Position numbers and translations under genes: made by a program
Notes under the pieces: model-generated
The model's input: the letters and a program-made list of their open reading frames with translations, nothing else
What the model was told of the DNA's origin: nothing
Databases searched by the model: none
Shown: positions 7,225 through 27,204 of the stretch, piece by piece
Numbering within the stretch: the first letter of the stretch is position 1
Layout of the letters: each line of letters opens with the position of its first letter
NCBI RefSeq assembly: GCF_039905635.1
Contig: NZ_CP157000.1
Coordinates: 3,968,001-4,032,000 of the forward strand
Length of the DNA: 64,000 bases
Direction: 5' to 3'
Source: Microbacterium sp. ProA8
GTDB taxonomy: Bacteria > Actinomycetota > Actinomycetes > Actinomycetales > Microbacteriaceae

Positions 7225-7239
7225 TCGAGAATTCAGGAG
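7225..7239 (+). repeat. Dispersed 15-mer TCGAGAATTCAGGAG (ribosome-binding site region)
   Basis: The same 15-mer occurs, with at most one mismatch, as both arms of an inverted repeat inside fbiC (19873-19948). Here it supplies the AGGAG of the FAH gene ribosome-binding site. Confidence 0.6.
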
Positions 7240-14456: not shown

Positions 14457-16988
14457 ATGCCCCACGGCCAGTCGCTGGAGTTCTCAGGTGTCACCAAGCG
14501 CTTCGGCGCCGTCACGGCCGTCGCCGGCCTCACCGCGCGCGTCGAGCCCGGGCAGGTGACCGGATTCCTCGGCCCGAACGGCGCGGGCAAGACCACGACA
14601 CTGCGGATCCTCCTCGGCCTCGTCCGCGCGACGGACGGCCACGCGACGATCGGCGGCCGCCGCTACGCCGAACTCGACCGCCCGCTGCAGACCGTCGGGG
14701 CCGTGCTCGAGGCATCCAGCTTCCATCCCGGCCGCACCGCCGCGGCGCACCTCACCATCTACGCGCAGGCCGCCGGCATCCCCCGCACGCGGGTGGACGA
14801 GGTGCTGGATCTCGTGGGGCTGACGGATGCCGCGAACCGCAAGGTCGGCGGATTCTCACTGGGCATGCGCCAGCGCCTCGGCCTGGCCTACGCGCTGCTG
14901 GGCGACCCGGGCGTGCTGGTGCTCGACGAGCCGGCGAACGGGCTCGACCCCGAGGGCATCCGCTGGATGCGCGGCTTCCTCCGCCGGCTCGCCGCCGAGG
15001 GGCGCACCGTGCTCGTGTCATCGCACCTGCTCGCCGAAGTGCAGCAGACCGTCGACGCGCTGCTGATCATCTCGGGCGGGCGGCTCGTCTTCCAGGGATC
15101 GATCGACGAGCTCACCGACCCCGACGAGCACGCCACCGTCGTCGACGCGCCCGACCGCGCGGCGCTCGCGGCGGCTCTCCAGACCGCGGGCGTACCCTTC
15201 GAAGTCCTCCGCTCGGGCCTCACCGTGCGCGGCCTCGACCCCGTCGCCGTGGGCGCGGCAGCAGCCGCCGGCGGCGTGGCCCTGTCGTCGCTGCACCGGC
15301 GCGGCCCCGCGCTCGAGGAGGTCTTCCTCGATCTCGTCAACGGCGCTCGCGTGCACGCGAGCGCGGCAGGCGGGGTCGGTCCGCTGTCGCATGTGCCCGG
15401 GACGGATGCCGCCGCCGCGGGCCTCGCCGCGGGCGCCACGTCGGCGGGGGCGGCGACGGCGGTGGTGACGGCCGACCCGGAGCCCTCGGAGTCGGAGCCG
15501 CCCGCGGTCGCGGACGGTTCGCCCGAGCAGGAAGACCCGGGATCGCACGAGGCCGAGCAGTCGGCGCTCAGCACGGCGGTCCTCGACGCCGAGGGGACGA
15601 GCGCGCCGGGTGCCGCCGCTGCTCTCGGTGCAGCCGCCGGGGCTGCGTGGGCGAGCGAGGCACGAAACGATGAGCCTGCCGCCGCCACCGAAATGCCGCG
15701 GGCCGCGGAGCAGAGTGGCGATGCGGAAGCCGCGGAGCAGGGTGGGACTGCCGAAGCCGCGGAGACCGCGTCGGTCGACGACCTCCCGCCCACAGCCGAT
15801 TCGGCCCCGACGGAGTCCGCGCCCCCGTGGTACGCGGTCGCGAGCACGGGTGTGATCGACATCGTCCCCGCCGCCGCGCAGGAGCAGCAGGGCGAGGTCG
15901 CGCCGGAGCAGCACGGCGAGGGCCTCCCGGAGCAGCAGGGCGATGTCGCGCCGGAGCAGCACGGCGGGGGCGAACAGGAGCAGCCGGGGCAGGAGTTCGC
16001 CCCCGCGGGGGGCGCGGAGCCCGCGGCCGACTGGGCGTCGGATCCTGCAGCGATCCCGGCGGATGCCGAGGAGCTCGCCCCCGACGACCCCTGGGCGCCC
16101 GAAGACTCAGACCCCGACGTCGATGCTCTGGGTGAGATCGACGACGAGCTCTCCGCTCGCGAACCGGCCGATGCAGACGACGACCGCCCGTGGGAGCACT
16201 ACGTCAAGACGGACTCCGACATGGAGGCCGATGCCTTCTTCGCGGCGTTCGACGCCGACGGCAACCCCCGCGTCGCGCCCGCTCCGGACGTGGAACCGGA
16301 ATCACAGCCCGAACCGGAATCCGAGCCCGCGGCCGAGGCCGATGCTCCCGGCGCACCAGACCAAGAGCCCGTTCTTCAGCCCGAGCCGGAGTCCGAGCCC
16401 GCACCGGCGGCCGACGACTCCGACGAATCAGACACCTCCCGCGCTGTCGAGCCCGACGCTGAATCGGAACCGGCACCCGAGTCCGACGCCGAATCAGAAC
16501 CGGCACCCGAGTCCGAGGGGTGGGCTGCAGAACCCGGCATCACACCAGACCTCGCGGCTGCCCCACCCGGCGATGAACCCAAGCCCTCGTCCGTGGCCGA
16601 ACCCGAACCCGAATCCGAACCCGAACCCGCAGCCGAATCCGAGGATCGGGCTGCCGACCTCGGCTTCGCGCCCGAAGCCGCTCCCGGGCACGAACCCGCG
16701 CCGGCTCCCGAGCCCGAACCCGCGTCCGAGGAGCGGGCTCCGGAACCGGAACCCGCCCCCGAGCCAGAGGTCGACGCCCCGGAAGAGCCGGCGACCGCGC
16801 CCACCGCCGACGCCGCGCCCGAAGAGTCGGCATCCCAGCCGGCGGCTGCAGACTCCGCCGACGAAGCGTCGCCCGAGCCTGCCGCACCGGCGCCGGACGC
16901 GGCATCCGTCCCCCCGCCGACCGACCACGACGATACCGACACCGCCCGCTCGGCGGATGCCCGCCACGAGGAAGGGGGCGACCGATGA
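14457..16988 (+). CDS. ABC transporter ATP-binding protein with giant acidic disordered tail
   Basis: The first 300 or so residues are a standard exporter-type ABC ATPase: Walker A GPNGAGKTT, signature FSLGMRQRLGLA and Walker B VLVLDEPANGLDP. The remaining 540 or so residues have no fold I recognise. They begin Ala/Gly-rich, pass through EQQGE/EQHGE-type repeats (about residues 478-520) and end in long Glu-Pro-Ala-Ser-rich runs. The tail frame stays open up to an ATGA overlap with the permease, so it is genuinely translated. An ATG at 14394 has a good AGGAG, but the 21 codons it adds have atypically AT-rich third positions, so I prefer 14457. Confidence 0.85.
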   Translation: MPHGQSLEFSGVTKRFGAVTAVAGLTARVEPGQVTGFLGPNGAGKTTTLRILLGLVRATDGHATIGGRRYAELDRPLQTVGAVLEASSFHPGRTAAAHLTIYAQAAGIPRTRVDEVLDLVGLTDAANRKVGGFSLGMRQRLGLAYALLGDPGVLVLDEPANGLDPEGIRWMRGFLRRLAAEGRTVLVSSHLLAEVQQTVDALLIISGGRLVFQGSIDELTDPDEHATVVDAPDRAALAAALQTAGVPFEVLRSGLTVRGLDPVAVGAAAAAGGVALSSLHRRGPALEEVFLDLVNGARVHASAAGGVGPLSHVPGTDAAAAGLAAGATSAGAATAVVTADPEPSESEPPAVADGSPEQEDPGSHEAEQSALSTAVLDAEGTSAPGAAAALGAAAGAAWASEARNDEPAAATEMPRAAEQSGDAEAAEQGGTAEAAETASVDDLPPTADSAPTESAPPWYAVASTGVIDIVPAAAQEQQGEVAPEQHGEGLPEQQGDVAPEQHGGGEQEQPGQEFAPAGGAEPAADWASDPAAIPADAEELAPDDPWAPEDSDPDVDALGEIDDELSAREPADADDDRPWEHYVKTDSDMEADAFFAAFDADGNPRVAPAPDVEPESQPEPESEPAAEADAPGAPDQEPVLQPEPESEPAPAADDSDESDTSRAVEPDAESEPAPESDAESEPAPESEGWAAEPGITPDLAAAPPGDEPKPSSVAEPEPESEPEPAAESEDRAADLGFAPEAAPGHEPAPAPEPEPASEERAPEPEPAPEPEVDAPEEPATAPTADAAPEESASQPAAADSADEASPEPAAPAPDAASVPPPTDHDDTDTARSADARHEEGGDR

Positions 16989-18522: not shown

Positions 18523-21024
18523 GTGACAGTCGTGTCCCCCTCCGTCACCGCGCCTTCCGCAGCGGCCCCGTCCGCCGCCGTCGACGCAGCCCTCGCGCGC
18601 GCCGCAGCGGGCGAACGGCTCGACACGGCCGACGCCGAGGCGCTGCTCGCCGCAACGGGCGAACGGTTCGAACGCATGCTCACGATCGCCGGGGAGGTGC
18701 GGGATGCGGGGCTCGCGACATCCGGTCGTCCCGGCGTGATCACGTACTCGCGCAAGGTCTTCGTGCCCTTAACGACCCTCTGCCGCGACCGCTGCCACTA
18801 CTGCGTGTTCGTCGACACCCCCGGGCAGCTGCTCAAGAAGCACAAGCCTGCGTACATGTCGCCCGAGCAGGTGCTCGCCGTGGTGCGGCAGGGGCAGGCG
18901 ATGGGCTGCAAAGAGGTGCTGCTGACGCTCGGCGACCGGCCCGAGGAGCGCTGGCCCGAGGCGCGGGCCTGGCTCGACGAGCACGGATTCGCATCGACGA
19001 TCGAGTACGTCGCGCACATCGCACGCCTGGTGACCGCCGAGACCGGGCTGCTCGCGCACGCCAACCCCGGCGTCATGACCGAGGACGAGCTGCGGATGCT
19101 GCGTCCCGTCGCACCCTCGATGGGCATGATGCTCGAGACGACCTCCCGCCGGCTGTTCGAGGAGCCGGGCCAGGTGCACTTCGGCTCGCCCGACAAGGAT
19201 CCGGCCGTACGGCTCGAGGTGATCGACGCCGCCGGGCGCGAGCGCGTGCCCTTCACCACCGGCATCCTGGTCGGGATCGGCGAGAGCGTGCACGACCGCG
19301 CCGAGTCGCTCGTCGCGATCCGCGACGCGCACGAGCGGCACATGGTCGAGGGCCAGGGCCACGTGCAGGAGGTGATCGTGCAGAACTTCCGCGCGAAGCC
19401 TCGCACCGCGATGCAGGGTGCGCCCGACGCCGACCTGCTCGAGTACGTCGCTGCGGTGGCGGTGGCGCGGCTCGTCATGGGACCCCGCATGCGGATCCAG
19501 GTGCCGCCGAACCTCTCCGACGCCACGGAGTTCGGCCTGCTCGTGCGCGCCGGCGCGGACGACTGGGGCGGCGTCTCGCCCCTCACCGCCGACCACGTCA
19601 ACCCCGAGCGCCCGTGGCCGCACCTCGACGACCTCGCCCGCATGACGGCGGAGCTCGGCTTCGAGCTGCGCGAGCGCCTGACCGCTCAGCCCGAGTTCGT
19701 CGTCGCCGCGGAGACGTGGATCGATCCGGAGCTGCGCCCCGCCGTCTCCGCGCTCGCCGACCCGTCGACCGGCCTCGCCGCGATGGACGTCGAGAATCCG
19801 GGCGAGATCGCCGCTTTCCCTCCCCGCGGCGCCGGTTCCGACCGATTCGGCCCGGGTCCTTCACACGGTGCGGTCAAGAATTCAGGAGACGCGCCGGTGG
19901 ACTCCGGCGCCGCGGGCTCGTCGCGGTCCGAACTCCTGAATTCTCGACGCGACCCGGCCGACCTCCGCCGCCTGGCCGAGACCGCCGCCGCCGACCCGCT
20001 CGCGCTCGACGACGCCGAGTGGGTCGCGCTCCTGGAGGCGACGGGCGACGACCTCGACGTCCTCGCGGCCACCGCCGACGACGTCCGCCGCTACACCGTG
20101 GGCGAGGCCGTCACGCTCGTCGTCAACCGCAACCTCACGTCCTCCGGACTCCGCGCCGTCGCCACCGACGACCCCGCGACCTTCACGCTCGACGACGTCC
20201 GCGCGATCGCCGCCGACGCCTGGGACCTCGGGGCCACCGAGCTCTGCGTGCAGGGGCTGCTGCCGCCGGAGCAGGACGCCTCTGGGTATCTCGACATCGC
20301 GCGTGCCGTGAAGGCCGCGGCTCCCGGCATCCATCTCCACGCCTACCGTCCGCAGGATGTCCGCGATCTCGCCGACCGCTCCGGGATGGGGCTCGACGCC
20401 GCCTTGGCCGCACTGCGCGACGCCGGCGTCGACACCGTGCCCGGCACGGGCGTCAAGGTGCTGAGCGAGCGCGTTCGCGCCCTGGTCGCACCCGGCGACC
20501 TCGAGATCGACCGTTGGATCGAGGGCATCACGGCCGCCCACCGCGCCGGCTTCCGCTCGACGAGCGTGCTCTTCTACGGGCACGTCGAGACCTCCGCCGA
20601 GCGCATCGCTCACCTGCGGCGGCTGCGCGAGATCCAGGGCGCTGCGGCGCACGCAGGTGCCGGAGGCGGCTTCAGCGAGTTCGTGCCCATCCCGCTGCCG
20701 GGTCCCGCCGGCGGCGTGCCGCTCGTCGACGGCCGGGCGCCGCTCGACGAGCACCGGGCGATGGTGGCGGTCTCGCGACTGCTGCTGTCGGGCAGCATCC
20801 CGCACGTGCAGATCCCGTGGACGCGCGTCGGGCGCGAGGCATCCGTCGTCCTGCTGCAGTCCGGGGGCGACGACCTGGGCGGCACGCTGCTCGACGGCCG
20901 CGTCAAGCCCGGGGCGGGCATCGAGCACGGTCTCGAACTGCCGCTGACGGATGCCGCGGCCATGGCCGCCCGCATGTTCCGGCCGTTCCGGCAGCGCACC
21001 ACGACGTACGGCCAGGCGCGATGA
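18523..21024 (+). CDS. fbiC: F420 precursor (FO) synthase FbiC with degenerate CofH half
   Basis: Joins tyrosine and a ribityl-diaminouracil to make the deazaflavin FO, using two fused radical-SAM domains. The N-terminal CofG half is intact: CRDRCHYC gives Cys87, Cys91 and Cys94. The C-terminal CofH half aligns well (VNRN, ATELCVQG, HLHAYRPQ, GVDTVPGTG, YGHVETS, GFSEFVP, DDLGGTLL). At residues 538-550, however, where NxxxCxxxCxxC is expected, there is no cysteine in any frame. A linker (about 427-478) carries an inverted repeat. 833 residues. The GTG at 18523 is a leaderless-like start. Overlaps the next gene (ATGA). Confidence 0.85.
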   Translation: MTVVSPSVTAPSAAAPSAAVDAALARAAAGERLDTADAEALLAATGERFERMLTIAGEVRDAGLATSGRPGVITYSRKVFVPLTTLCRDRCHYCVFVDTPGQLLKKHKPAYMSPEQVLAVVRQGQAMGCKEVLLTLGDRPEERWPEARAWLDEHGFASTIEYVAHIARLVTAETGLLAHANPGVMTEDELRMLRPVAPSMGMMLETTSRRLFEEPGQVHFGSPDKDPAVRLEVIDAAGRERVPFTTGILVGIGESVHDRAESLVAIRDAHERHMVEGQGHVQEVIVQNFRAKPRTAMQGAPDADLLEYVAAVAVARLVMGPRMRIQVPPNLSDATEFGLLVRAGADDWGGVSPLTADHVNPERPWPHLDDLARMTAELGFELRERLTAQPEFVVAAETWIDPELRPAVSALADPSTGLAAMDVENPGEIAAFPPRGAGSDRFGPGPSHGAVKNSGDAPVDSGAAGSSRSELLNSRRDPADLRRLAETAAADPLALDDAEWVALLEATGDDLDVLAATADDVRRYTVGEAVTLVVNRNLTSSGLRAVATDDPATFTLDDVRAIAADAWDLGATELCVQGLLPPEQDASGYLDIARAVKAAAPGIHLHAYRPQDVRDLADRSGMGLDAALAALRDAGVDTVPGTGVKVLSERVRALVAPGDLEIDRWIEGITAAHRAGFRSTSVLFYGHVETSAERIAHLRRLREIQGAAAHAGAGGGFSEFVPIPLPGPAGGVPLVDGRAPLDEHRAMVAVSRLLLSGSIPHVQIPWTRVGREASVVLLQSGGDDLGGTLLDGRVKPGAGIEHGLELPLTDAAAMAARMFRPFRQRTTTYGQAR
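19873..19948. repeat. Inverted repeat inside the fbiC interdomain linker
   Basis: GTCAAGAATTCAGGAG (19873-19888) and its inverse CTCCTGAATTCTCGAC (19933-19948) match over 16 bases with one mismatch. The element is in frame and encodes part of the low-complexity linker between the CofG and CofH halves. It resembles a small palindromic element tolerated in a linker. Confidence 0.7.
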
Positions 21025-22484
21025 CCCGCGTCGAGGTCGCGATCGTCGGCGCCGGCTTCGCGGGCATCGGCATGGCCATGGCGCTGCGTCGAGCCGGCCG
21101 CGAGGACTTCGTCGTGCTCGAGCGCGGCGCCTCCGTCGGCGGAACGTGGCGCGACAACACCTACCCGGGCGTGGCGTGCGATGTGCCGTCGCACCTGTAC
21201 GGCTTCGCCGCCCACCCGAACCCGTCGTGGTCGGGAACCTATGCGCGGGGCGACGAGATCCGCGCGTACCTCGAGCGGGTCGTCGACGCCGAGGGCCTCG
21301 ACGACCGGCTGCGCCTGCGTACGGCGATGCAGCGGGCGGACTGGGATGCCGAGCACGAGGTGTGGCACATCGGAACGTCGTCGGGTGTCATCGTGGCGGA
21401 CGCGATGGTGCTCGCCTGCGGGCGGCTCACCGAGCCGTCGATCCCCGAGGTCACGGGCCTCGAGACCTTCACCGGCCCCCTGTTCCACTCGGCGCGGTGG
21501 GATCACTCTTCCGACCTCGCGGGCCTGCGGGTCGGTGTCGTCGGCACCGGCGCCAGCGCCATCCAGCTGGTGCCCGAGCTCGCCCGGACGGCCGCGCACG
21601 TCACGCTGTTCCAGCGCAGCCCCGCCTGGATCGTGCCGCGCGGCGGCACGGCGTACTCCGAGGCCGACCGCGCACGGTTCGCCGAGGCCCCCGAAGAGCT
21701 CGCCGCGCTCCGGGCCGACCTCTACGCCGAGGGCGAGCTGCGCTTCGCCTCGCGGTCCGGGGATGCCGCCGCCTCCACCCGGGCGCAGGCCGAGGCGCTC
21801 GCGCATCTCGAGGCGCAGGTCGCCGACCCCGCCCTGCGCGCCGCGCTCACGCCGGACTACGCGTTCGGCTGCAAGCGCGTGCTGCTGTCGGACGAGTTCT
21901 ATCCCGCGGTCGCGTCGGACGCAGTGACCCTCGTGCCGGCCGCGCTGGAGCGCGTCGACGGCACGACGCTCGTCGCCGCCGACGGCACCCGCCACGAGGT
22001 CGACGCCCTGGTGCTCGCGACGGGCTTCGCCTCGACCCAGCAGCCCTACGCCGAGCTCGTCGTCGGCGAGCACGGCGACACGCTCGCCGCCCACTGGTCC
22101 GGCGGCATGACCTCCTTCGCCTCGACGGTGGTCGCCGGCTTCCCGAACCTCTTCGTGCTGAACGGCCCCAACGCCTCGCTCGGCCACTCGTCGTCGGTGC
22201 TCATGATCGAGGAGCAGGCGGCGTACACCGCGCGCGTGCTCGACGGCCGCGCCGGCGGCGTGCTGCGCGTCGACCCGGGCGCTGAAGACGCCTACACCGA
22301 CGAGATCGCGGCGGCCGCGGCATCCACCCCCTGGATGACGGGCGGATGCCGCAACTGGTACGTCGACGAGCGCTCAGGCCGCCTCACCCTGCTGTGGCCC
22401 GGCACCGTCGACGCGTTCCGTGCGCGGCTCGCCCGCGCCGACGGCTCCGAGTTCCTGCCCGAGCCCGCACCCCTGCCCCGCTGA
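21021..22484 (+). CDS. Flavin-containing (Baeyer-Villiger type) monooxygenase
   Basis: 487 residues with FAD-binding VGAGFAGIG near the N-terminus, SVGGTWRDNTYPG, the Baeyer-Villiger fingerprint FTGPLFHSARWD (FxGxxxHxxxW) and an NADPH-binding VGTGASAIQ. Together these mark a class B flavoprotein monooxygenase that inserts oxygen next to a ketone or oxidises a heteroatom. It starts within the fbiC stop and is followed 10 bp later by fgd. It is therefore embedded in the F420 operon, although the enzyme itself uses FAD and NADPH. Its substrate is unknown. Confidence 0.85.
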   Translation: MTRVEVAIVGAGFAGIGMAMALRRAGREDFVVLERGASVGGTWRDNTYPGVACDVPSHLYGFAAHPNPSWSGTYARGDEIRAYLERVVDAEGLDDRLRLRTAMQRADWDAEHEVWHIGTSSGVIVADAMVLACGRLTEPSIPEVTGLETFTGPLFHSARWDHSSDLAGLRVGVVGTGASAIQLVPELARTAAHVTLFQRSPAWIVPRGGTAYSEADRARFAEAPEELAALRADLYAEGELRFASRSGDAAASTRAQAEALAHLEAQVADPALRAALTPDYAFGCKRVLLSDEFYPAVASDAVTLVPAALERVDGTTLVAADGTRHEVDALVLATGFASTQQPYAELVVGEHGDTLAAHWSGGMTSFASTVVAGFPNLFVLNGPNASLGHSSSVLMIEEQAAYTARVLDGRAGGVLRVDPGAEDAYTDEIAAAAASTPWMTGGCRNWYVDERSGRLTLLWPGTVDAFRARLARADGSEFLPEPAPLPR

Positions 22485-22494
22485 GAGGAATCGC

Positions 22495-23508
22495 ATGACC
22501 GTTCCGCTGCGCTTCGGATACAAGGCGTCCGCCGAGCAGTTCGGCCCCGCCGAGCTGCTCGACTACGCCGTACAGGCCGAGGAGGCCGGGTTCGACTCGG
22601 TCTTCATCTCGGACCACCTGCAGCCCTGGCTGCACGAGGGCGGCCATGCTCCGGCATCCGTTCCGTGGCTCGGCGCACTCGGCGCGAAGACCTCGCGGGT
22701 GCTCATCGGCACGTCGGTGCTGACACCGACGTTCCGGTACAACCCGACCGTCGTCGCGCAGGACTTCGCGACGCTCGGCGTGATGTACCCGGGACGCGTG
22801 ATCCTCGGCGTCGGCACCGGCGAGGCGCTCAACGAGGCGAACCTGGGCATCGTGTGGCCCGACCCGCCCGAGCGGTTCCAGCGGCTGAAAGAGGCGATCG
22901 GCCTCATCCGCCGGCTGTGGTCGGAAGACCGCGTCAACTTCGACGGCACCTACTACCACGCCCGCAACATCACGATCTACGACAAGCTGCCGGAGCCCGT
23001 GCCGATCTACATCGGCGCCGCCGGACCCGCGGCGACGCGCCTCGCCGGCCGCATCGCGGACGGTTTCATCACGACGTCGGGTAAGAAGCGCGAGCTGTAC
23101 ACCGACACGCTGCTGCCCGCGCTCGACGAGGGGCTGTCGAAGGCCGGGCGCACGCGCGACGACCTCGACACGCTCATCGAGGTGAAGGTGTCGCTCGACG
23201 CGACGCTCGAGGCCGCGCAGGAGAAGACCCGGTTCTGGGCGCCGCTCGCGCTGACGCCCGAGGAGAAGATGGGCATCGACGACCCGATCGAGATGCAGCG
23301 GCTCGGCGAGCAGCTGCCGATCGAGCGCGCCGCCTCGCGGTTCATCGTGTCGGACGACCCCGACGAGCACGTCGAGCGCATCGCCTGGTACATCGAGCTC
23401 GGCTTCCGCCACCTCGTCTTCCACGACCCGGGCCACGACCAGAGTGCGTTCCTGGGGCTGTACGGCGAGGAGATCCTGCCGCGCCTGCGCGCGCGGTTCG
23501 GCGCGTGA
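22495..23508 (+). CDS. fgd: F420-dependent glucose-6-phosphate dehydrogenase (LLM family)
   Basis: 337 residues. Reduces F420 with glucose 6-phosphate and so supplies F420H2. The block ISDHLQPWLHEGGHAP holds Asp40, His41 and Trp45, and GVGTGEALNE holds Glu110. These correspond, with an offset of one, to the active-site residues known in mycobacterial FGD1. That close match argues for Fgd itself rather than a generic luciferase-like oxidoreductase. The ATG at 22495 follows GAGAGGAA. It overlaps cofC by four bases, so enzyme and cofactor genes are co-expressed. Confidence 0.85.
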   Translation: MTVPLRFGYKASAEQFGPAELLDYAVQAEEAGFDSVFISDHLQPWLHEGGHAPASVPWLGALGAKTSRVLIGTSVLTPTFRYNPTVVAQDFATLGVMYPGRVILGVGTGEALNEANLGIVWPDPPERFQRLKEAIGLIRRLWSEDRVNFDGTYYHARNITIYDKLPEPVPIYIGAAGPAATRLAGRIADGFITTSGKKRELYTDTLLPALDEGLSKAGRTRDDLDTLIEVKVSLDATLEAAQEKTRFWAPLALTPEEKMGIDDPIEMQRLGEQLPIERAASRFIVSDDPDEHVERIAWYIELGFRHLVFHDPGHDQSAFLGLYGEEILPRLRARFGA

Positions 23509-24230
23509 GCCCGCTGTTCGGGCGACGCCGCCGGCAGAACTCCACGGATCCGGTGTCGCCGTCGTCGCGCCCGGACCCTCTCGCCGATACGAATACCGAA
23601 TCCGTGGAGTTTCGCCACGCCCGCTGGGTCGTCGTGGTGCCGGTCAAGCCGTCGGCGCGCGCCAAGTCCCGGCTCGATGTGCCGGGGGTCGGCCGCGCAG
23701 ACCTCGCGCGTGCCATCGCTCTCGACACCCTCGCGGCGGCGACGGCGTCCGAGCTCGTCGCGCAGGTGGTGGTCGTGACCGACGACGCCGCGCTCGCCCG
23801 CGAGGCGGCGATGATCCCGGCGCTGCGGTTCGTCCCCGAGGGCGACGCGGACGGACTCGATGCCGCGGTGGCGGCGGGTGTGGCGGCCATCGACCCGCAG
23901 GGACGGATGCCGCGCGCCGCCCTGCTCGGCGACCTCCCGGCCCTGCGTCCCGCCGATCTCGCCGACGCACTGCGGGCCGCGGCATCCGTCGATCGCGCCG
24001 TCGTCGCCGACGCCGAAGGCACCGGATCCACCCTCGTCACCGCGGCGGCGGGTGTGGGGTGGACGTCGTCGTTCGGCGACGGCTCGTTCGCTCGGCACGT
24101 CGCTCTGGGGTGCGCGGCGCTCGAGATTCCGGATGCCTCCACCCTGCGCCGCGACGTCGACACCGCCGCTCAGCTCGAAGCGGCACGCGCGCTGGGCCTG
24201 GGTCCGCGCACGGCCGCGCTGCTCGCCTGA
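23505..24230 (+). CDS. cofC: 2-phospholactate/phosphoenolpyruvate guanylyltransferase CofC (FbiD)
   Basis: Activates a phospho-three-carbon acid with GTP for transfer to FO in F420 synthesis. Family blocks: VVVPVKPSARAKSRL (nucleotide binding), VVVTDD, LLGDLPALRPADL and SFGDGSFARHV near the end. From the GTG at 23505 (overlapping the fgd stop) the protein has 241 residues, but the first 40 or so are unlike the family. They are encoded largely by a palindromic element (23538-23611), so an internal start near the GTG at about 23604 is possible. The core is a normal length. Confidence 0.85.
   Translation: MSPLFGRRRRQNSTDPVSPSSRPDPLADTNTESVEFRHARWVVVVPVKPSARAKSRLDVPGVGRADLARAIALDTLAAATASELVAQVVVVTDDAALAREAAMIPALRFVPEGDADGLDAAVAAGVAAIDPQGRMPRAALLGDLPALRPADLADALRAAASVDRAVVADAEGTGSTLVTAAAGVGWTSSFGDGSFARHVALGCAALEIPDASTLRRDVDTAAQLEAARALGLGPRTAALLA
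23538..23611. repeat. Inverted repeat within the 5' end of cofC
   Basis: AACTCCACGGATCCGG (23538-23553) faces CCGAATCCGTGGAGTT (23596-23611), 16 bases with one mismatch. It is in frame and encodes most of the atypical N-terminal extension of CofC. I see no second copy in this window. Confidence 0.65.
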
Positions 24231-26175: not shown

Positions 26176-27204
26176 TCAGCGCACTCGATCGTCGGGCAGC
26201 GCGGCGGCGAGCGCGGCCTGCGCGAGCGCGGTCTGGCGTGCGGCACTTGCACTGGGCGACGAAGGAGCCGAAGCGTCCGTCATCCACAGCGGACGGACGA
26301 GCGGACGGATGCCGAGCCCGGCCACCTCGCCGGCTGCGGCCTCGTCCTCCTCGGCGATGAGCCAGGCGTCGAGCAGCCCGCCGTCGGAGCGGGCACCGTA
26401 GAGCCCGGCGACTGCCGCGGCGGAGGTCTCGACCCCGATCGCGGTGAGGCACACGTCGGCCATGCCGCGCACGACCTTGCCGCCGATGATGGGCGAGACG
26501 CCGACGATCGGCGCGGCCGTCTGTCGGAGCGCCTCCCGCACGCCGGGAACCGCGAGGATCGGGCCGATCGAGACGACGGGGTTGGAGGGGGCGAGGAGCA
26601 CCACATCCGCTCCCGCGATCGCCTCGGCGACGCCCGGAGCGGGTGCGGCGGCAGCGATGCCGGGGTTCTCGAAGCGCGCGGGGGTGAGCGTGGCGCGGTG
26701 CCGCGTCCACCACTCCTGGAAGTGCAGTCGCGCGCCGTCCTCGAGCACCACCACGGTGTCGACTTCGGCGTCGGTCATCGGCAGCAGCCGTGCGCCCAGG
26801 TCCCAGCGGTGCGACATCCGCTCCAGCACCTGCGTCGGCGTGAGGCCGTCGCGCAGCCAGCCGGTGCGGGCGAGATGGGTGCCGAGGTCGAGGTCGCCGA
26901 GGGTGAACCACGGCCACCCGGCGCCCCACTCCTGCAGCTCGTGGTTGACGCGCTCGCTGTCGCCCTGACGGCCCCAGCCCCGCTCGGCGTCGTTCACGCC
27001 GGCGAGGGCGTAGGTGATCGAGTCCACGTCCGGCTGGAGGCGGACGCCCGACAGCCAGAGGTCGTCGCCCGTGTTGACGATCACGGTGAGCGCGGCGGCG
27101 GTGTCGTCGAGGCCCTGCGCGCGCAGCGCCCCGCGGACGCCCAGCACGAAGCGCGACCCGCCGACGCCGCCCGCGAGCACGACGATGCGGGGTGTGCCGG
27201 TCAT
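26176..27204 (-). CDS. cofD: 2-phospho-L-lactate transferase CofD (FbiA)
   Basis: 342 residues. Transfers the activated phospho-three-carbon moiety made by CofC onto FO to give F420-0 (or its dehydro form). It begins IVVLAGGVGGSRFVLGVRGAL and carries VIVNTGDD, FTLGDLDLGTHLARTGWL, LLAPSNPVVSIGPIL and SPIIGGKVVRGMAD, the standard CofD blocks. It sits opposite the fbiC-fgd-cofC operon, 7 bp after hemD. The gamma-glutamyl ligase (FbiB/CofE) needed to finish F420 is not in the window. Confidence 0.92.
   Translation of the reverse strand: MTGTPRIVVLAGGVGGSRFVLGVRGALRAQGLDDTAAALTVIVNTGDDLWLSGVRLQPDVDSITYALAGVNDAERGWGRQGDSERVNHELQEWGAGWPWFTLGDLDLGTHLARTGWLRDGLTPTQVLERMSHRWDLGARLLPMTDAEVDTVVVLEDGARLHFQEWWTRHRATLTPARFENPGIAAAAPAPGVAEAIAGADVVLLAPSNPVVSIGPILAVPGVREALRQTAAPIVGVSPIIGGKVVRGMADVCLTAIGVETSAAAVAGLYGARSDGGLLDAWLIAEEDEAAAGEVAGLGIRPLVRPLWMTDASAPSSPSASAARQTALAQAALAAALPDDRVR

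Follow-up and report, generated by a model that had tools for sequence, protein, structure and literature searches.

The subject of this analysis is fbiC, the gene for a fused CofG-CofH synthase of FO (the deazaflavin core of cofactor F420), in Microbacterium sp. ProA8, together with a monooxygenase gene that overlaps its 3′-end. The accessible sections of a 2021 review describe FO in all studied F420 producers as the product of a universal mechanism that depends on two radical S-adenosylmethionine (SAM) domains (PMC8498797). The window, by which we mean the whole stretch of 64,000 nucleotides that was analysed (contig NZ_CP157000.1, positions 3,968,001 to 4,032,000), harbors the two genes on the same strand with the following features, "clusterless" denoting a CofH half that lacks the cysteine motif of its iron-sulfur cluster and "canonical" one that has it.

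18523..21024, + strand: fbiC, fused CofG half and clusterless CofH half, 833 amino acids (below the PRK09234 cut-off)
18742..19746, + strand: CofG half, radical SAM domain intact, CRDRCHYC (TIGR03550)
20008..21012, + strand: clusterless CofH half, CofH* (below the TIGR03551 cut-off; AlphaFold2 model; MqnE fold match)
20134..20181, + strand: cysteine-free stretch in place of INFTNxCYTGCRFCAFAQR (sequence, alignment)
20347..20349, + strand: codon of R609, Arg in all clusterless rows against an invariant Ser in canonical CofH
21021..22484, + strand: predicted Baeyer-Villiger monooxygenase (BVMO)-like flavin adenine dinucleotide (FAD) monooxygenase, 487 amino acids, its start overlapping the fbiC stop as ATGA (fingerprint FTGPLFHSARWD, fold)

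The window protein shares with the FbiC and CofG-CofH FO synthases the order of its domains, an intact CofG half, a CofH-like TIM barrel and an F420 neighbourhood, but differs from them in its sub-cut-off scores and in having no CxxxCxxC, the motif that binds the [4Fe-4S] cluster, in its CofH half. The CofG half carries this motif as CRDRCHYC and reaches 458.6 bits against the NCBIfam model TIGR03550 (cut-off 213.35). The CofH model TIGR03551 (NCBIfam, cut-off 374.1) gives 294.9 bits with the full protein and 264.3 bits with the CofH half alone, and the model of bifunctional FbiC, PRK09234 (NCBIfam), gives 939.5 bits against a cut-off of 1018; because both curated models place the protein below their cut-offs, the switch would easily be overlooked in routine annotation. 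In the CofH half, VNRN (residues 534-537) is followed by LTSSGLRAVATDDPATFTLDDV, which is free of cysteine, no TGC or TGT codon occurs on either strand of 20134-20172, and the two other forward frames around this stretch encode no CxxxCxxC. A frameshift or a hidden cysteine was rejected because the stretch contains no Cys codon, and the initial annotation was thus right that the CofG half keeps its motif, that the CofH half has no Cys where its own should sit, and that a frameshift does not explain this. About a dozen alignment columns that hold CYTGCRFCAFAQR in canonical proteins are gaps in most clusterless rows. Because the cluster ligands are absent, a SAM- and radical-dependent joining of tyrosine and the diaminouracil by clusterless CofH appears, from the sequence, to be very unlikely.

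The codons of the linker between the two FbiC domains also contain an inverted repeat (GTCAAGAATTCAGGAG/CTCCTGAATTCTCGAC, 19873-19948) with 16-nt arms that are 94% complementary. Its core recurs at 7228-7239 between two predicted genes (3 matches against 0.06 expected) and is lacking in the five relatives' loci checked; the sequence may represent an in-frame insertion of a small dispersed repeat.

The gene that overlaps fbiC by 4 bases was absent from the initial annotation. From its sequence and structural model we infer that the product of 21021-22484 is a Baeyer-Villiger-type FAD monooxygenase, for which Baeyer-Villiger activity is predicted. It has two Rossmann dinucleotide-binding motifs and the BVMO fold, and its FTGPLFHSARWD conforms to FxGxxxHxxxW[PD], the fingerprint motif of type I BVMOs, which occurs in strict form in 72 of the 101 distinct BVMOs linked to CofH. 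The model has a mean predicted local distance difference test score (pLDDT) of 84.9, all 50 of the Protein Data Bank (PDB) fold matches listed are BVMOs, and it superimposes on cyclohexanone, phenylacetone and steroid monooxygenases with template modelling (TM) scores of 0.79-0.87. With these type I enzymes the window copy shares the two Rossmann motifs, the FxGxxxHxxxW core and the fold over the whole length, but it is 23-30% identical to them among the fold matches listed, shorter (487 amino acids) and tied to an F420 locus. Related genomes also contain unlinked BVMO paralogues (L297-L316), 42-48% identical to the window BVMO, which form a separate clade, lie away from fbiC, and occur in hosts with clusterless, canonical or no FbiC.

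The comparison with relatives covered 279 FbiC/CofH loci, some of them duplicates (L030 and L031, for example, are duplicate DNA), from Microbacterium, other Microbacteriaceae, other families of the order and named actinobacteria; two fragments without a CofH match (L189, L208) were dropped before counting. The loci comprise 176 clusterless ones with readable downstream DNA, 99 with CYxGCRFC and 4 exceptions, namely a canonical protein whose CTFKCRFC fell outside the search pattern (L235), a broken gene without the motif region whose remainder looks canonical (L212), and two contig ends (L185, L281). CxxxCxxC occurs nowhere in the CofH part of any of the 176 clusterless loci, and no CxxC was found within 35 residues after the matched NRN anchor in the 153 where this anchor could be matched. 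Named clusterless records include Microbacterium, Cryobacterium, Humibacter, Herbiconiux and Promicromonospora, and named canonical records include Galbitalea, Geodermatophilus, Streptomyces, Nonomuraea, Rhodococcus and Mycolicibacterium. A loss peculiar to a single strain was therefore rejected, since the clusterless form is widespread among relatives. The initial annotation had allowed that this family might normally lack the motif; for the clade this is indeed the case, and what looked like the oddity of one strain becomes a clade-wide variant of the pathway.

A BVMO homologue lies downstream on the same strand in all 176 clusterless loci, the distance between the ends of the CofH and BVMO matches being -1 to 1243 bp (median 62; within 300 bp in 143 of the 176), and in none of the flanking DNA read at the 99 canonical loci (at least 1.5 kb downstream in 95, at least 4 kb in 81). 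Counted as distinct CofH sequences, 168 are clusterless with the BVMO, 97 canonical without it and 4 exceptions; at the contig end L185 a BVMO homologue starts another contig of the same genome. FbiC is present in 103 of 198 Microbacterium genomes, and in 102 of these a BVMO at least 54% identical to the window copy adjoins fbiC; 82 were read in flanking DNA and 20 by coordinates only, where the cluster motif was not read (G105, G175, G028, G160, G017, G122, G024, G135, G020, G035, G174, G071, G099, G057, G027, G072, G062, G054, G166 and G090). The sole FbiC-bearing Microbacterium without such a BVMO, G170, has a contig end there, before the stretch that holds the motif, and in G044 the BVMO is split over a contig end, with the start of the gene beside fbiC in L253. 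None of the 95 FbiC-less Microbacterium genomes contains a BVMO above 40% identity (E <= 1e-60), and the BVMO was therefore rejected as a general Microbacterium gene.

The linkage also follows the CofH form beyond this genus. A whole-genome BVMO search of 80 of the 89 FbiC-positive family members outside Microbacterium gave a match in all 56 clusterless genomes; among the 24 canonical genomes, 20 had no match and 4 had copies of 39-46% identity distant from fbiC. Both CofH forms occur within the genera g12, g17, g77 and g195, and BVMO linkage goes with the form; in g195, from a different part of the class, the genes of G1245 run CofH*-BVMO-cofG, and G1235 has a canonical FbiC. In two families (f8 and f15; 16 loci, L220-L234 and L237) cofG is a separate gene (located on a different contig in L234), and clusterless CofH and the BVMO form an adjacent pair. 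In a phylum-wide sample, 33 genomes outside the order have BVMO-like matches (best per genome 42-50% identical), of which G1245 alone has the gene beside CofH by coordinates; CofH halves were read in 13 of these genomes, and 12 are canonical and that of G1245 clusterless. Many Streptomyces-like genomes in this sample have a BVMO-like gene about 70-130 kb away from a canonical fbiC; the same is found in several large actinobacterial genomes (G1079, G1132, G1279, G1058, G1121 and similar ones), where the gene is 46-49% identical to the window BVMO.

Trees were calculated from 99 rows, after omission of L185, L212, L235, L281, L245, rows without both halves and near-identical rows. The clusterless CofH rows form one side of a branch of length 0.55 with support 100*, and the linked BVMOs form one side of a 99* branch that separates them from 20 unlinked paralogues. 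Across 96 canonical rows, 147 CofH columns show at least 97% conservation. Among 166 clusterless rows, 53 of these columns are kept in 90% or more of the rows, and another 53 in 20% or fewer. The kept columns include R536, N537, E573, C575 (the only Cys retained among the canonical-conserved columns), Q577, H606, P610, P640-T642, R652, W665, H673, E719, R752, Q763, W766, D784, R825, T827 and Y829, and the lost ones include those of the cluster loop and that of the second glycine in QGG. The clusterless form has conserved residues of its own as well: R609 is found in a fraction of 1.00 of the 166 clusterless rows, where Ser is found in 1.00 of the 96 canonical rows, and E689 for Asp, G792 for Glu and P796 for Arg are found in 96-99% of clusterless rows. 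These clade-specific residues, with the BVMO neighbour in all readable loci, distinguish the clusterless form from the FbiC and CofG-CofH synthases in general. In the CofG half, by contrast, 160 columns are conserved among canonical proteins; 131 of them persist in at least 90% of 163 clusterless rows, and 4 are lost.

The clusterless CofH half is under purifying selection, the median ratio of nonsynonymous to synonymous substitution rates (dN/dS) being 0.14, against 0.08 for CofG and 0.13 for the BVMO (16 of 35 disjoint pairs). Its AlphaFold2 model (pLDDT 93.9) has the CofH/MqnE barrel, and the nearest solved fold is that of the aminofutalosine synthase MqnE (6xi9/6xig; best PDB match 6xig, TM-score 0.82, 21% identity), which is a working radical SAM enzyme, whereas the clusterless half has no cluster motif. 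Judged by purifying selection, the 53 kept columns and its own conserved residues, the clusterless half probably contains an active site that still works, but not by radical chemistry.

The remainder of the F420 pathway is intact. Three of its genes lie in the window.

22495..23508, + strand: fgd (TIGR03554, 448.2 bits against a cut-off of 420)
23553..24230, + strand: cofC/fbiD (TIGR03552, 121.9 bits against a cut-off of 105)
26176..27204, - strand: cofD/fbiA (TIGR01819, 298.8 bits against a cut-off of 257.45)

All three exceed their curated cut-offs, in agreement with the initial annotation, which had described them as intact. The search for fbiB that it had proposed located the cofE ligase part outside the window (G000:C1:3910322; TIGR01916, 224.8 bits against 180.65). 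The initial annotation had also considered that the strain makes FO differently or not at all; the former fits the data, and the latter is unlikely to judge from the genes, because CofG, CofC, CofD, CofE and Fgd are all kept, above curated cut-offs. The genome is a single contig rated 100% complete, and among its identified radical SAM proteins no separate CofH, MqnE or ThiH was seen, although no search with a CofH hidden Markov model was made. The others identified are MoaA, MiaB, HemW, LipA, an intein-containing Rv2578c-type protein, RlmN and an NrdG-like protein that scores below its own cut-off; two weak Radical_SAM matches under the Pfam cut-off (L122, L123) lie outside this set. The intein-containing protein of the Rv2578c family is encoded outside the window at G000:C1:236434-237990 (L116, L121) and scores 777.6 bits with NF038136. 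Upstream of fbiC, an open reading frame of 843 amino acids is predicted at 14457-16988, and the overlapping frames of this region at about 16000-16900 are repetitive and rich in Pro, Ser, Gly and Arg.

On this evidence, the BVMO and the clusterless CofH barrel together are likely to replace the radical CofH step. In canonical CofH, according to the accessible sections of the same review, tyrosine is cleaved by radical chemistry, the p-hydroxybenzyl radical adds to the double bond of ribityldiaminouracil, and the adduct is oxidised (PMC8498797). We reason that the net outcome is a hydroxybenzyl cation equivalent, which is chemically a p-quinone methide. A polar, O2-dependent route to FO, in which the BVMO supplies a 4-hydroxybenzyl electrophile, could therefore lead to the same result, and we regard this specific route as evenly balanced between right and wrong. 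In this route the BVMO, with FAD, reduced nicotinamide adenine dinucleotide phosphate (NADPH) and O2, would act on a tyrosine-derived carbonyl compound, either 4-hydroxyphenylpyruvate or 4-hydroxyphenylacetaldehyde, and place an oxygen between its carbonyl and its benzylic CH2 to form a 4-hydroxybenzyl ester. Phenylacetone monooxygenase, which converts phenylacetone to benzyl acetate, performs the same bond insertion. The ester would then lose its carboxylate to yield the p-quinone methide, which in polar, two-electron terms corresponds to the hydroxybenzyl radical together with one oxidation. The clusterless barrel would bind 5-amino-6-ribitylaminouracil and steer the attack of its C5 on the quinone methide, and the resulting 5-(4-hydroxybenzyl) adduct would be identical to that of radical CofH. 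The intact CofG half, seeing its usual substrate, would cyclise the adduct to FO, after which CofC, CofD and CofE would complete F420 and Fgd would reduce it.

If an ester is involved, a hydrolase-like gene would be expected in some clusterless loci. An alpha/beta-hydrolase-related gene lies between CofH* and the BVMO in 26 of 180 non-canonical rows (ten of which are the queries themselves, with one locus counted twice) and in none of the 99 canonical loci. Of ten such genes tested, 7 pass the Pfam cut-off, 1 falls below it and 2 have no match. Some copies, such as those of L127, L163 and L194, lack the GxSxG nucleophile motif and look as though the hydrolase were itself undergoing remodelling.

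Among the other explanations, one retains the replacement itself but holds that the monooxygenase N-hydroxylates L-tyrosine or oxidises another nitrogen, so that a heterolytic cleavage between C-alpha and C-beta, and not a Baeyer-Villiger ester, gives the hydroxybenzyl unit. Enzymes of the flavin-containing monooxygenase fold include amino-acid N-hydroxylases, tyrosine is the natural substrate of CofH, and the window BVMO weakly resembles the lysine/ornithine oxygenase family of Pfam (5.1e-7). This variant is nevertheless unlikely, because BVMOs account for most of the enzyme's matches in sequence and fold, the BVMO fingerprint is largely kept, and the hydrolase-like partners at some loci suit an ester better. 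It is also conceivable that the product of the pair is not standard FO but a modified deazaflavin or a different hydroxybenzyl-uracil compound, which CofC, CofD, CofE and Fgd then use, as the new invariant or nearly invariant residues R609, E689, G792 and P796 could reflect a changed substrate. We consider this less likely still, since CofG keeps 131 of its 160 canonical-conserved columns and CofC, CofD, CofE and Fgd score above cut-offs set for the standard F420 enzymes.

The CofH half might instead be a dead scaffold, with FO or the CofH product imported, or the step carried out by an unlinked radical SAM enzyme, and the BVMO an operon neighbour of unrelated function. A half that has lost its cluster and keeps 53 of 147 conserved core columns resembles one in early decay, and it evolves somewhat faster than CofG (dN/dS 0.14 against 0.08). 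However, it is under purifying selection, has a single old origin with its own invariant residues, and stays linked to one clade of BVMOs even where the genes are split, and the radical SAM proteins identified are only those named above and CofG; a dead scaffold is thus quite improbable. Of the suggestion in the initial annotation that the CofH half is now structural while another protein supplies the reaction, the second part fits the BVMO data, and the first is too weak a description of a half with such conserved columns and selection. An artefact, whether a sequencing or assembly error that conceals CxxxCxxC or mere chance, deserves practically no credence and is already refuted by relatives that show the same loss (176 of 279 loci, 168 distinct clusterless sequences), the genome being a single complete contig, the stretch having no hidden Cys codons and nothing having been found in its favour.

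Several points weigh against replacement of the CofH step by the BVMO and the clusterless barrel, and against the ester route in particular. The proposed reaction chemistry is drawn from resemblance to the BVMO family, whose members accept a broad range of substrates and oxidise nitrogen and sulfur too. Among the 101 distinct linked BVMOs, 29 deviate from the strict fingerprint, mostly at the last position. The hydrolase-like gene is absent from most clusterless loci, including that of the window, and this, with the copies that lack GxSxG (L127, L163 and L194, for example), weakens the argument for an ester. Much of the co-occurrence of clusterless CofH and the BVMO is shared ancestry; the clear switches within genera number only four, and that in g195 is a single genome pair. 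A quick CofG tree gave three changes, although the approximately unbiased (AU) test leaves a single clade acceptable (p 0.566), the tree constrained to this clade being even better. Independent recruitment of different CofG halves was dropped because the AU test does not reject the single clade; the CofG tree cannot separate one origin from several. In the literature searched, a scope that excludes most subscription papers and all preprints, we found no clusterless species for which FO or F420 had been measured. The accessible parts of PMC5408115 and PMC6279831 mention F420 enzymes in Microbacterium and those of PMC9415550 merely cite F420 work, and these parts report no measured F420.

In the same literature, a role of a BVMO or of clusterless FbiC in FO synthesis is unreported, and the findings suggest a previously undescribed, oxygen-dependent way of making the deazaflavin core of F420. 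The accessible parts of PMC11917521 name two problems of F420 production, low titres and an FO synthase that is sensitive to oxygen; if the proposal is true, the cofactor might become easier to produce. An O2-dependent step would then stand in for one of the two radical SAM steps, and actinobacteria such as Microbacterium would form a clade-wide exception that breaks the universal rule of two radical SAM domains. The route would likewise offer a clear example, found in nature, of a radical SAM fold adapted to non-radical catalysis, in which flavin-oxygen chemistry replaces radical chemistry while the fold and the product are conserved.

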